Source: Deltaproteobacteria bacterium (GTDB taxonomy: Bacteria > Desulfobacterota > Binatia > UBA12015). Taken from it: a stretch of DNA of 52,929 nucleotides. Location: NCBI GenBank assembly GCA_016874795.1, contig VGTG01000016.1, positions 1-52,929 of the forward strand. The letters run 5' to 3'. The position numbers and the translations under genes were made by a program. The notes under the pieces were generated by a model that saw nothing but the letters and a program-made list of their open reading frames with translations, did not search any database and was not told the DNA's origin. Positions 12,858 to 49,492 of this stretch are shown here, piece after piece. Each line of letters opens with the position of its first letter. Position 1 is the first letter of the stretch.

Positions 12858-15007
12858 GCCGTCCCCCCTCGATCGTCTCGATCGTCGAGATCGTCGCCCT
12901 CGGCGCGATCGTCGCGGCTTCGCTCGGGGCATGCGGCGACGACGACGGCGGGTCGAGCGAGCCGATCGCTCTCGAATCGTCGGCGGCGACGGTCGCGATC
13001 GAGCGCACCCCATTCCGGATCGACCTGCACGACCGCGTGAGCGGCGAACGCCTGACGCGCGGGCGGGCCGAGGAGTCGCTGTGGTACGAGCGCGCCGGCG
13101 AGCGCGTCCCGCTCGGCGACGTCGTCGGCGCGGAGGCGACTCCGGACGGCGTCGTTCTGCGCGTCGCCGCCGGCGCGGACGATCCCGCGACCGTCATGCT
13201 CCGCTTCGTCACACCGCGGACGCTCGAGGTCGTGCTCGACCCGGCCGCGCCGGAAACGGCGACCGCGTTCGGCGCCGCGTGGGAGTCTCCCACGGACGAA
13301 GCGATCTATGGCTTGACGGAGCGTCCGCGCGACTCGCCGCTGCTCGCCCCCGGCGTGATCGACGTGCCCGTCGAGGACACGCGTCCCGTCGACGCCGGGA
13401 CGCTGGATCGGCGCGGCGAGACGGTCGAGATGTTCATCCGCCCGACCTTCTCGCTCTACGCGCCGTTCCATCACTCGTCGCGCGGCTACGGCCTCGCGGT
13501 GAGCGGCACGACGCCGGGCTCGTACGACGTCGCCGCGAGCGAGCCGGACGTCGTCCGCTTCCGATTCGAGGCGGGAACGACCCCGGAGAGCCGGCGGCTC
13601 CGCTTCCATCTCTTCGTCGGCCCGGAGCACGCGACGATCCTCGACGAGTACACGCGTCTCACCGGCCGGCCGCTCGTGCCGCCGGACTGGGCCTTCCTGC
13701 CGTGGCGCTGGCGCGGCGAGCTCGAGGTCGGACCGCCGGCGATGCTCGACGGCGTCGCGATGAACGCTCAGCTCGTGGAAGACGTGACCATGTTCGAGCG
13801 GCTCGGCATCCCCGCAGGCGTCTACATGCTCGACCGTCCCGTCCTCGAGGGCGAATTCGGCTTCGCGCGCTTCGCGTGGGACGAGGAGCGGCTTCCGAAC
13901 GCGCGCGCGATGCTCGAAGCGCTCCGCCGCCGCGGCTACCGCCTGGTCACGTGGAGCTCGACGTGGACCTGCGGCGCCGGTCCCGACGACAACGGCGCCG
14001 CCGCGCAGGAGCTCGGGTTCGTCGCGCCGGGTCCCGTCCAGACGCCGCATTGCGCGGACGTCGGCGGCACGAGCTTCCTTCTCGACGTCACGAGCGCCGA
14101 GGCGCGCCGCTGGTGGAAGGAGCGGCTTCGCGACTTCGCCGTCGGCGAGGGTCTCGACGGCTTCAAGCTCGACCGCGGCGAAGAGCACATCCCGTCCGCG
14201 ACGACCGACGTCTGGGCGGACGGACGAAACGGCCGCGAAGTGCACAACGACTACGTCGTGCTGCAGACGGCACTCCACTACGAAGCGCTCGCGGAGGCGC
14301 GGCCCGACGGCGATTTCGTGCTCTTCACGCGCTCCGGCTACACGGGCACGCAGCGGCACTCGATCGTCTGGGGCGGCGACATCCCGGCGAGCGAGGACTT
14401 CGGTGCGGGCAAGGGAACCGACCTCGGCCTTCGCGCGGCGATCCTCGGACAGCTCCGCGCCGCGTTCCTCGGCTTCCCGATCTGGGGCTCGGACACGGGC
14501 GGCTACTACGAGTTCAAGGACCGCGAGGTCTTCGCGCGCTGGCTCGAGTTCAGCGCGTTCTCCGGGATCATGGAAGTCGGCGGCGTCGGCGCGCACGCGC
14601 CCTGGGACATGCCGACGGAGCCCCGGTACGACGAGGAGATGATCGAGATCTACCGCCGCTACTCGCGGGTCCGCGTCGCGCTCGCGGGCTATCTCGCGGA
14701 AGCGGCGCGCGAAGCGGGCGCCACCGGGATGCCACTCGCGCGGCCTCTCGTCTTCCTCGACCGGAGCGATCCCGAGCTGCGCGATCTCTGGGACGAGTGG
14801 ATGCTCGGCCCGGACTTCCTCGTCGCTCCGGTCTGGCGGAGCGGTGCGCGCTCCCGCGAGGTGTACTTCCCGCGCGGCTCGTGGCGGAGCTGGTGGGATC
14901 CGTCGGAGACCTTCACAGGACCGGCGCGCGTCACCGTGCAGGTGCCGCTCGACCGCATTCCGGTGTACGTACGGGAAGGCGCCGACGTGCCTTCCCCACC
15001 GAGCTGA
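12854..15007 (+). CDS. Glycoside hydrolase family 31 lipoprotein
   Basis: Starting at the GTG that overlaps the mtaB stop, the product is 717 aa. Its signal peptide ends in LGAC, a lipobox. The catalytic barrel has the GH31 nucleophile motif FKLDRGE with Asp440, and WGGDIPASEDF with Asp509 as the likely acid/base. The 69-residue spacing fits GH31. Upstream lie the N-terminal beta-sandwich (IYGLTERPRDS, PFHHSSRGYGLAV) and the PPDWAFLPWRWRGE barrel entry. The C-terminal beta domain contains DFLVAPVW. Family activities include alpha-glucosidase, alpha-xylosidase and sulfoquinovosidase, and the sequence alone does not decide among them. A surface or periplasmic role in glycan turnover is likely. 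The coupling to a tRNA-modifying enzyme is odd and probably only positional. Confidence 0.9.
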   Translation: MSRPPSIVSIVEIVALGAIVAASLGACGDDDGGSSEPIALESSAATVAIERTPFRIDLHDRVSGERLTRGRAEESLWYERAGERVPLGDVVGAEATPDGVVLRVAAGADDPATVMLRFVTPRTLEVVLDPAAPETATAFGAAWESPTDEAIYGLTERPRDSPLLAPGVIDVPVEDTRPVDAGTLDRRGETVEMFIRPTFSLYAPFHHSSRGYGLAVSGTTPGSYDVAASEPDVVRFRFEAGTTPESRRLRFHLFVGPEHATILDEYTRLTGRPLVPPDWAFLPWRWRGELEVGPPAMLDGVAMNAQLVEDVTMFERLGIPAGVYMLDRPVLEGEFGFARFAWDEERLPNARAMLEALRRRGYRLVTWSSTWTCGAGPDDNGAAAQELGFVAPGPVQTPHCADVGGTSFLLDVTSAEARRWWKERLRDFAVGEGLDGFKLDRGEEHIPSATTDVWADGRNGREVHNDYVVLQTALHYEALAEARPDGDFVLFTRSGYTGTQRHSIVWGGDIPASEDFGAGKGTDLGLRAAILGQLRAAFLGFPIWGSDTGGYYEFKDREVFARWLEFSAFSGIMEVGGVGAHAPWDMPTEPRYDEEMIEIYRRYSRVRVALAGYLAEAAREAGATGMPLARPLVFLDRSDPELRDLWDEWMLGPDFLVAPVWRSGARSREVYFPRGSWRSWWDPSETFTGPARVTVQVPLDRIPVYVREGADVPSPPS

Positions 15008-15018
15008 GCAAGGAGGAA

Positions 15019-15480
15019 ATGGTGTACGACCTGCTGGCGATCGAGGAGATCAAGCGGCTCAAGTACAAGTACATGCGCTGTCTCGACCAGAAGCGTTGGG
15101 AAGAGATGGCGGAGTGCTTCGTCGAGGGCGCGACCGCCGCGTACAGCGGCGGCAAGTACACGTTCGAGGGACGCGCTTCGATCCTCGACTTCTTCTCGAA
15201 GGCGATGGGGCGCCCGACCGTTCTTTCGAGCCACCGCGTCCACCACCCCGAGATCGATCTCACGAGCGAGACGACGGCGAAGGGTACGTGGGCACTCGAG
15301 GACGTCTTCATCGACGAGGACGCCGGCGTGACCGTACGCGGCGCGGCCTTCTACGAGGACCAGTACGTCAAGGTCGGCGGCGCGTGGAAGATCAAGCATA
15401 CCGGCTACTCGCGGACGTACGAGGAGATCGAGAACCGGAAGCAGATGCCCTGGCTGACGATCTCGCAGCGCGCGAGCTGA
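15019..15480 (+). CDS. SnoaL-like (NTF2 fold) protein
   Basis: The product is 153 aa. A perfect AGGAGGA site precedes the ATG at 15019 by only 2 bases after the SD-like run, within 12 bases of the GH31 stop. The sequence (LLAIEEIKRLKYKYMRCLDQKRWEEMAECFVE, then GGAWKIKHTGYSRTYEE) fits the SnoaL_4 type of NTF2-like proteins, in which Tyr/Asp/His residues line a small-molecule pocket. Members act as cyclases, isomerases or dehydratases, or have unknown substrates. A second NTF2-like gene lies at 16074, with a VOC-fold gene between them. Confidence 0.82.
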   Translation: MVYDLLAIEEIKRLKYKYMRCLDQKRWEEMAECFVEGATAAYSGGKYTFEGRASILDFFSKAMGRPTVLSSHRVHHPEIDLTSETTAKGTWALEDVFIDEDAGVTVRGAAFYEDQYVKVGGAWKIKHTGYSRTYEEIENRKQMPWLTISQRAS

Positions 15481-15490
15481 GGAGGCAACG

Positions 15491-15610
15491 ATGATCCCTG
15501 AGACCCTCCGGACGCGAAGCGCGCGGACGAGCGAAGCGAGCGGAGAGTGGGGGTCCCGTCGGGCTTCGCCCGATGGGGGAGAGGGGCGGCGCCCCTCTCG
15601 ATTCGAATGA
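15491..15610 (+). CDS. 39-codon ORF created by an inserted hairpin element, coupled to the VOC gene
   Basis: GGAGG at 15481-15485 is placed 5 bases before the ATG at 15491. The ORF runs through the inserted element (MIPETLRTRSARTSEASGEW at the start) and stops at the TGA at 15608, which overlaps the ATG of the VOC gene at 15607 (ATGA). The encoded peptide is low-complexity Arg/Ser/Gly and has no relatives that I recognise. The likely role is to keep ribosomes moving into the VOC gene, which lost its own ribosome site to the insertion. Expression is inferred. Confidence 0.45.
   Translation: MIPETLRTRSARTSEASGEWGSRRASPDGGEGRRPSRFE
15496..15606 (+). mobile_element. 111-bp hairpin element flanked by ATGAT duplications
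   Basis: The stretch contains two perfect hairpins. TCGGGC-TTC-GCCCGA lies at 15559-15573. GAGAGGGGC-GGC-GCCCCTCTC lies at 15579-15599. GCGAAGCG..GCGAAGCG repeats precede them. It is bounded by ATGAT at 15491-15495 and ATGAT at 15607-15611, as expected for a 5-base target duplication. Removing 111 bases plus one ATGAT restores a normal SD-spacer-ATG for the VOC gene. No terminal inverted repeat ties it to a named family. Confidence 0.6.
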
Positions 15611-16077
15611 TGCGGTTCAACCACATGGAGTTGACGCTGGCGCCGGGGACGCTCGACGACGAGATGCGCCGCCGGATCGGCTCGTTCTACGGCGACATCT
15701 TCGGCTGGTCCTCGATGAACGTGCGCGTCGTCGGTCAGGACGCATTCCTTCTGAGCGTCGACCCGACGACGAGCCAGTTCCTCCTCGTCGCCGAGAGCCC
15801 GAAGCCGATGCAGTCGCCGGGCTACGATCACCTCGGCCTCCTCCTGGAGACGCGCTCGGAGGTCGACGGCCTGCTCGAGCGCTGCCGCGCGTTCCAGCAG
15901 AAAGACGACCGCGTGCAGATCAAGGAGTACGAGGACCTGCTGCAGGGTCCGCTGACGGTACACGCGTTCTACGTCAAGCACCTCCTGCCGATCTGGTTCG
16001 ACGTGCAGTGCATGGAGTGGCGGCCGGGGGCCGAGCCGCGGGACCGCTGGACGTACGGCCCGGCGCAGCGATCGTGA
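15607..16077 (+). CDS. VOC-fold (glyoxalase/bleomycin-resistance-like) protein
   Basis: The 156-aa product starts MMRFNHMELTLAPGTLDDEMRRRIGSFY, a beta-alpha unit in which GSFYGDIFGW matches the 'FYxxvFGw' turn of VOC modules. YDHLGLLLETRSEVDGLLERC follows at the second metal-site position. The metal ligands of lyase members are only partly present, so the activity is unclear. The start is ATG at 15607 or 15610. Neither has its own ribosome site because of the insertion upstream. The stop overlaps the GTG of the next gene (GTGA). It lies between two NTF2-fold genes. Confidence 0.78.
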   Translation: MMRFNHMELTLAPGTLDDEMRRRIGSFYGDIFGWSSMNVRVVGQDAFLLSVDPTTSQFLLVAESPKPMQSPGYDHLGLLLETRSEVDGLLERCRAFQQKDDRVQIKEYEDLLQGPLTVHAFYVKHLLPIWFDVQCMEWRPGAEPRDRWTYGPAQRS

Positions 16078-16604
16078 AGCTCGATCCCAGCAAGACGTGG
16101 CGGAAGGTCGAGGAGCGCCTCGGACGCGAGACGAACCCGCGCCTGCGGCGAAACCTCGAGCTCGTCCTCGCGCACATGAAGGCGGAAGCCTCCGGCGATC
16201 TCGAGGCGCTGATGCGCACGGTCTCTCCCGGAGCGCACTATCACGCGTACGGGACGGAGGAGCCGTTCCTCAGCCCGAAGGGGAAGGACGCCGTCCGCGC
16301 GTTCTACGAGGCGTTCGTCGGCTCGGGCGCGTTCCGCCTCGAGTTCGACCTCGACCGGCTCGTCGTCGACGAGGACTGCATCCTCACCGAGGGGACGATG
16401 CGGATCGCGTATCCCGGCGCGACGCTCCGCGCGATGGGGCACGAGGTCGACGACCCCGAAGCGTTCTACCTCTACGAGTCGCGCATGGCCGTGATCTGGC
16501 CGTTCGACCGCGACGGCCTCGTGGTCGGCGAGGACAGCTACACCGCGACCGACGGCTTCCGTGGCATCGCCGACCGAAAGATCAAGCTCGAAGACATTGC
16601 GTGA
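16074..16604 (+). CDS. NTF2/SnoaL-like protein
   Basis: The product is 176 aa from a GTG overlapping the VOC stop. The sequence has the NTF2-like pattern: LVLAHMKAEASGDLEALMRTVSP, then GKDAVRAFYEAFVGSG, a strand pair around LVVDEDCILTEGTM and VIWPFDRDGLVVGEDSY. The long helix plus curved sheet fits polyketide-cyclase-like or SnoaL folds. No substrate can be named. It ends the plus-strand run that began with mtaB, before a strong hairpin at 16617-16653. Confidence 0.78.
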   Translation: MKLDPSKTWRKVEERLGRETNPRLRRNLELVLAHMKAEASGDLEALMRTVSPGAHYHAYGTEEPFLSPKGKDAVRAFYEAFVGSGAFRLEFDLDRLVVDEDCILTEGTMRIAYPGATLRAMGHEVDDPEAFYLYESRMAVIWPFDRDGLVVGEDSYTATDGFRGIADRKIKLEDIA

Positions 16605-49313: not shown

Positions 49314-49492
49314 CCTGCATTTCTCACCAGATCACGTCGCGAGGCGGTCGAGAGTGCGGAAGATTCGCGAGCCTCGGACCGGAGGGCGACGCAGGCGTAC
49401 TTGAACAGTACGTCGAGGAGCCCGGAGGGAGAAGCTCGCGAAGATTCGGTGCTATCGGCCGCCGCAGTAGGGATCTGGTGAGAAATGCAGGC
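49313..49492 (+). mobile_element. 180-bp non-coding MITE with 21-bp terminal inverted repeats, IS630-like target
   Basis: Termini are GCCTGCATTTCTCACCAGAT (49313-) and its exact complement (49472-49492). TA stands on each side (49311-49312 and 49493-49494) within CTA-element-TAG, the pattern IS630-family transposons leave at CTAG. A CGTACT-TGAAC-AGTACG hairpin lies in the middle. It has no transposase gene. Identical over 124 bases to the partial copy at 1-124. Since the element starts with G, the stop codon TAG of the MFS gene is preserved. Confidence 0.85.

Follow-up and report, generated by a model that had tools for sequence, protein, structure and literature searches.

The SnoaL-VOC junction

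The window analysed here is the whole 52,929-nucleotide stretch presented above, and all coordinates refer to it. Within it, a SnoaL-like gene is followed by GGAGG (15481-15485), CAACG and ATGAT (15491-15495), then by 111 bases and a second ATGAT (15607-15611) that opens a VOC-like gene, so that each of the letters described in the first-pass annotation is found in its place. The features of the junction are as follows.

15019-15480, plus strand: upstream SnoaL-like gene (Pfam SnoaL_4, E = 6e-32), with its TGA stop at 15478-15480; its orthologue in the same-genus genome G001 adjoins VOC
15481-15485, plus strand: GGAGG, 5 bases 5' of the leader ATG
15491-15610, plus strand: leader ORF of 39 codons, whose TGA overlaps the VOC start as ATGA
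15496-15606, plus strand: inserted stretch, the 111 bases between both ATGAT, delimited from the sequence
15496-15504, plus strand: left arm of the insert, from the flank profile
15505-15600, plus strand: core of the insert, matching covariance model R1 at 84.7 bits, the sole R1 match in the window
15508-15526, plus strand: position of hairpin 1, placed by the family consensus hairpin and imperfect in the window copy
15555-15577, plus strand: hairpin 2, CCCGTCGGGC-TTC-GCCCGATGGG, 10 bp with one G.T pair
15579-15599, plus strand: hairpin 3, GAGAGGGGC-GGC-GCCCCTCTC, 9 bp, perfect
15601-15606, plus strand: tail of the insert, from the flank profile
15607-16077, plus strand: VOC-like gene, starting with ATGATG at the element's right end; placed by orthologue starts and Glyoxalase matches

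The VOC label derives from sub-threshold Glyoxalase matches in 6/6 sequences (the window protein, E = 0.037, and five orthologues; best E = 0.0095), the window protein having no Pfam match at E 0.001. The orthologue N-termini read M-(L/I)-R-F-N-H-M-E, with two extra residues in G001, and R-F-N-H-M-E is common to all five and to the protein that starts at 15607; because the N-termini match there, the complete natural VOC start lies to the right of the insert. Judged from its letters and position, GGAGG is presumably the former ribosome-binding site of VOC. The 39-codon leader described in the first-pass annotation is confirmed at 15491-15610, with its TGA inside the ATGATG of the VOC start. Both of the hairpins that it called perfect are present, but only hairpin 3 is perfect, hairpin 2 containing the G.T pair.

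The empty site sought for comparison was found in G001, where SnoaL and VOC lie adjacent and without the element. There, the two genes are joined by TAA, 12 bases and ATG, against 126 bases between stop and start in the window; as G001 belongs to the same genus and has no match to the repeat, the window stretch is an insertion relative to it. The comparison was extended to 30 G001 loci returned by one joined query, giving 24 locus-copy pairs (23 copies), of which 8 were set aside with the left gene unmatched and 16, with both neighbours matched, were kept. The net gain over G001 is 95-138 bases at 12 of these 16 syntenic sites, and the median of all 16 is 112.5. Four sites are outliers: at one (gain 61) the gene finder had extended the left gene as far as the element's interior, two (64 and 70) have long gaps in G001, and the gain of 221 includes a second, MITE-like repeat.

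Copy number and distribution of the repeat

A genome search with the 111 bases gave many further copies, and the stretch belongs to a dispersed, high-copy, structured repeat, in line with the earlier view of it as an inserted element. The own genome, a 360-contig draft, contains at least 43 BLAST matches to the inserted stretch (a lower bound, from 40 of 212 first-look candidates scored) and at least 118 matches at E <= 0.001 to R1, a model built from 37 copies (likewise a lower bound, from 150 of 21500 candidates). With the copy at L044 as query, 44 other matches were obtained, most of them 87-98% identical, and some of the spread is therefore recent.

Scoring the best 106 candidates per genome, R1 matches were found in 5 of 38 relatives (G006, at least 71; G010, at least 41; G032, at least 32; G025, at least 23; G005, at least 3; own genome in the same run, at least 103), and none were found among the 106 scored in each of the same-genus genomes G001-G003. 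The element is thus present in four Binatia genera, its own and three others, one of these with only 3 copies. Among 147 other genomes of the class, 5, in two further genera, match at E <= 1e-7 in a scan with stricter filters, which missed G005. A scan with one 27-base pattern returned 24 stretches from MAGs labelled Candidatus Binatia, Deltaproteobacteria, 'bacterium' and Myxococcales; those from the Myxococcales MAG (L276) and from 'bacterium' MAGs, including L264, have no R1 match. Plasmids, phages and viral contigs, queried with a single copy or a single pattern, gave no element match. Rfam gave no match up to E 5 for window positions 14900-16200 and, for six other loci, a single match of 14.6 bits, below the cut-off of 40 that membership would take. 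No such family appears among the matches listed for the open-access literature on Binatota palindromes and on repeat coupling and placement.

Small intergenic repeats are common, and a second, unrelated one lies at window positions 49314-49491: a MITE-like element of 178 bases with CTAG on both sides and 20-base terminal inverted repeats (CCTGCATTTCTCACCAGATC). It has at least 40 full-length matches in the genome, with 40 of 286 candidates scored, and as these are ~99% identical it spread in a very recent burst. The window itself (1-120) begins inside another copy, and at L041, L150, L151, L154 and L159 the right end of this MITE lies ~0-25 bases from the left end of the hairpin element. The left flanks at L013, L018 and L157 have a short motif in common just upstream of the hairpin element, GCGAGC..AGCTCGCCAC, perhaps another palindromic repeat.

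Structure, ends and candidate mobiliser

The core comprises ~97 bases and three hairpins, to which short arms are added. In the window copy, hairpin 1 is absent from the predicted fold and the folding energy has z = -1.48; since 16 of 200 dinucleotide shuffles fold equally well, folding energy alone would not reveal the element. RNAalifold, applied to the own-genome copies, gave 29 pairs, 5 of them changed on both sides, with a covariation term of 0.11; this being near zero, the own-genome set by itself is weak evidence of structure. In the third sub-family, several hairpin-2 pairs are broken. Across 138 copies from six genomes, hairpins 1, 2 and 3 display 13, 40 and 21 distinct 6-bp arm pairs, and a stem of at least 6 bp is present at the hairpin 1 position in 121. 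When arms were swapped between copies, pairing fell to 0.49, 0.57 and 0.77, respectively, from an own pairing that is 1.00 by construction, the stems being the best paired stretches and some picks representing other registers. The hairpin stems vary among copies yet remain paired.

Beyond the core, 83 copies have in common only an AT-rich tail of 9 bases and, more weakly, the left arm. A search for terminal inverted repeats that would close the structure, as in MITE or ERIC elements, found none, the complementarity of the ends lying below that of shuffles.

A search for a protein that moves the element found none. A Y1 transposase family is multi-copy in the own genome (13 Pfam matches, at least 23 by profile A2), and was considered as a RAYT-like mobiliser. 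Scoring 74 candidates in each genome, profile A2 matched at least 23 times in G000, 24 in G025 and 13 in G032, and did not match in G006 or G010, although both are element-rich; 20 Y1 loci yielded one partial element copy (E = 0.0018) and one chance-level match (E = 0.83). The Y1 genes neither flank the element nor track it across genomes, and were rejected. The divergent multi-copy Y1 (IS200/RAYT-like) genes at L078-L089, a family abundant in G025 and G032 as well, share up to ~200 bases upstream, and in the rows examined no common downstream flank past the gene end was seen.

Placement relative to genes

For gene context, copies with the same right flank were counted once and a called gene was required on either side, using 250 bases on both sides for 91 own copies or 300 bases for 74 copies; contig-edge, partial and some tandem matches were left out. 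Genes were called with our own codon-usage gene finder, and start positions are predictions. The orientations of the neighbours of the 91 own-genome copies, relative to the element, are +- in 37, ++ in 31, -- in 19 and -+ in 4. Convergent gaps are enriched (28/68 with the element versus 17/130 without, p = 1e-5) and divergent gaps are depleted (2/68 versus 23/130, p = 0.003); element-free gaps have medians of 27 (convergent), 30.5 (co-directional) and 162 (divergent).

The distances to the neighbours are short. Of 56 copies whose right-hand gene is on the minus strand, 40 have its stop codon at -5 to +6 relative to the core end, and several of these genes have what we take to be natural C-termini (RadC and a P-II protein among them, as identified from the letters); in other genomes the minus neighbour's stop falls at -3 to 12 in 26 of 28. 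When the right-hand gene is on the plus strand, the start lies 0-11 bases from the core end in 14 of 35. Overall, the copies lie close against the ends of genes, and most separate convergent or co-directional neighbours. Tandem copies at C8, and at C54 and C164, include pieces of neighbouring genes and are for that reason read as tandem duplications. Tandem element copies are seen at L009 (1562-1789), L036 and L033, with units that reach into the beginning of the downstream gene.

Frames through the element at start-adjacent copies

The first-pass annotation attached weight to an open frame through the element. The frame is present and, as described below, a coupled leader recurs, but openness itself is cheap: the three forward frames of the GC-rich core are free of stops in 70, 102 and 100 of 114 copies (61, 89 and 88%), and with stops lacking in most copies an open frame alone means little. 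We considered the frames in relation to the neighbouring genes at 13 start-adjacent copies, defined by a plus-strand stop no more than 60 bases upstream and a plus-strand start no more than 25 bases downstream; 20 further own-genome regions and 33 usable copies elsewhere added none to the set.

A frame that initiates at a start codon in the gap and runs through the core is found in 12 of the 13, versus 12 of 38 copies outside the set (Fisher p = 2e-4; 8/27 convergent and 4/11 ++ with a distant start). More specifically, 8 of the 13 have a frame of 38-49 codons that opens directly behind the upstream stop and closes in an NTGA overlap with the downstream start: the window, L020, L032, L037, L038, L039, L133 and L134. 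Besides the window, 7 of 12 start-adjacent copies are thus bridged in the same manner, including every one with an NTGA start (8 of the 13 when the window is counted), and in all eight the frame starts at most 13 bases from the upstream stop. The overlapping or near stop-start arrangement of a coupled leader is accordingly present in the window, as ATGA, and in 8/13 of the set. No tight bridge is seen at L044, L010 or L016.

Permuting the left flanks within the start-adjacent set gave p = 0.0065 and 0.010, and 0.012 without the window copy, a p of about 0.01 that rests on n = 13, on one genome and on the starts of a self-written gene finder. With left flanks drawn from convergent copies with gaps of at least 15, 2.9 bridges are expected, and 0 of 4000 draws reached 8. 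With ATG starts only, 4 of 13 are bridged, which is not significant (p = 0.22). In the bases examined, a clear Shine-Dalgarno precedes the leader start in the window and at L039 only; the remaining bridging leaders have GTG or TTG starts and weak sites. NTGA starts make up 8/13 of the start-adjacent set versus 0.32 of 130 other starts, and the bridge pattern may be due in part to the element's right end rather than to the leader. In G001, the gaps from stop to likely start at the L020, L134, L039 and window loci are 5, 7, 11 and 12 bases, and no 4-base overlap occurs; if G001 shows the ancestral state, these four NTGA overlaps were not simply inherited.

Interpretation of the bridged copies

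On balance, we lean towards the reading that the window holds a repeat copy bridged by the leader ORF, such that termination-reinitiation would reach VOC. Insertion of the element would have separated the VOC gene from its own Shine-Dalgarno; the short frame, which begins shortly past the SnoaL stop, would use the former ribosome site, cross the stop-poor core and end in ATGA on the VOC start. The operon would thereby regain only close stop-start junctions, at which ribosomes would terminate and then reinitiate. In the six pairs tested in one report (PMC10666635), a gap of ~20 nt nearly abolishes reinitiation and coupling requires an overlap or a very short gap; an insert of ~110 bases would therefore be expected to uncouple an operon pair, and the window copy may be tolerated because the bridging frame restores close stop-start junctions on both sides. 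From the letters, we infer that the frame may be translated and coupled to VOC, and that selection, among insertions or later changes, may lie behind the recurrence. More tentatively, the pattern may extend to a mobile family whose stop-poor core would serve as a ready-made bridging cistron, surviving in operons by restored coupling.

The start of VOC could instead owe its rescue to the element's own sequence, an alternative that we consider doubtful. At the foot of hairpin 3 lies a stretch of purines, GGGGGAG in the window and GGAGGAG in many copies, that, once the hairpin folds, could act as a ribosome site ~7 unpaired bases from the start, leaving the leader ORF incidental; the tail spacing in the alignment fits, and starts are abutted by sense copies (16 of 35 right-hand plus starts within 30 bases) and rarely by antisense ones (2/23). 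However, most aligned copies have these purines in their core irrespective of the surrounding genes, and so give no sign of a link to starts; the bases concerned are engaged in hairpins 2 and 3, and the bridging of all 8 NTGA starts would be left unexplained. Nor do we think it probable that the element is chiefly an RNA-level 3'-end structure, a REP/ERIC-like mRNA stabiliser or terminator kept after stop codons, with the start-adjacent insertions as mildly harmful passengers and the bridges a product of chance and GC-rich composition. The excess in convergent gaps, the scarcity in divergent ones and the varying yet paired stems favour such a role, as does the placement of REPs elsewhere, for which unidirectional and convergent gene pairs are described as the main sites (PMC3733652), whereas the exact bridges exceed the expectation from convergent left ends (8 versus 2.9).

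The first-pass annotation had explained the restored start codon by a 5-base duplication of ATGAT, and transposon-like insertion with such a target duplication now appears very improbable. ATGAT does flank the window copy on both sides, as TTGATC does at L037, and with offsets ignored the own-copy flanks have a mean shared word of 5.24 against 4.79 in shuffled pairs (sd 0.10, 84 copies) and 131 shared 6-mers against 67 expected, an excess due in part to the tandem copies that these sets still included. At matching offsets, however, repeats are in no significant excess over shuffled pairs, either in 83 own copies (p = 0.07-0.40) or in 117 copies from all genomes (p = 0.115-0.46). The family tail is frequently CGAATGA or CGATGA, and at L020, where the element likewise abuts an ATGATG start, the 40 bases to the left contain no ATGAT. 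As a signature of the element, the duplication is not supported. With none found at matching offsets, the best account of the paired ATGAT in the window is coincidence, or a tail motif of the CGAATGA or CGATGA type beside a start codon.

If the bridging reading is true, an element that severs a gene from its ribosome site and is itself bridged would show how operon insertions are rescued, and new small translated frames would arise naturally from bridging mini-cistrons. For the distance rule of termination-reinitiation, a single genome supplies a ready series of 13 start-adjacent copies.

Comparison with known systems

We read the element as a new REP/ERIC-like repeat family that stands out by its recurrent bridging mini-cistrons. 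Rickettsia palindromic elements are repeats tolerated by staying open for translation, in frame inside proteins; the likeness lies in being open for translation, whereas the frame here is separate from both genes. The resemblance to REP/BIME sequences (GTAG, CGTC, RAYT-associated), described as small, high-copy intergenic palindromes with convergent or co-directional placement (PMC3733652), is that the element is likewise high-copy, intergenic and scarce in divergent gaps. Unlike a REP, a 20-40-base palindrome with a GTAG/CGTC tag, it has a core of ~97 bases with three hairpins and lacks the tag, the flank profile of 83 copies containing no conserved tetranucleotide. With ERIC and RU-1, the enterobacterial small mobile sequences (103-168 bp), it has in common the size class, the intergenic location and the open frames, but its frames bridge two genes and end on the next start, where those of ERIC/RU-1 fuse into proteins (PMC2759123); no target duplication was seen, and the comparison is one of descriptions. 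Finally, the end of the leader and the start of VOC share 4 bases, as in ATGA termination-reinitiation, a stop-start overlap given as one of the two commonest (PMC10666635); unlike in the usual ATGA coupling, the upstream partner is a frame from an inserted repeat and not an older gene.
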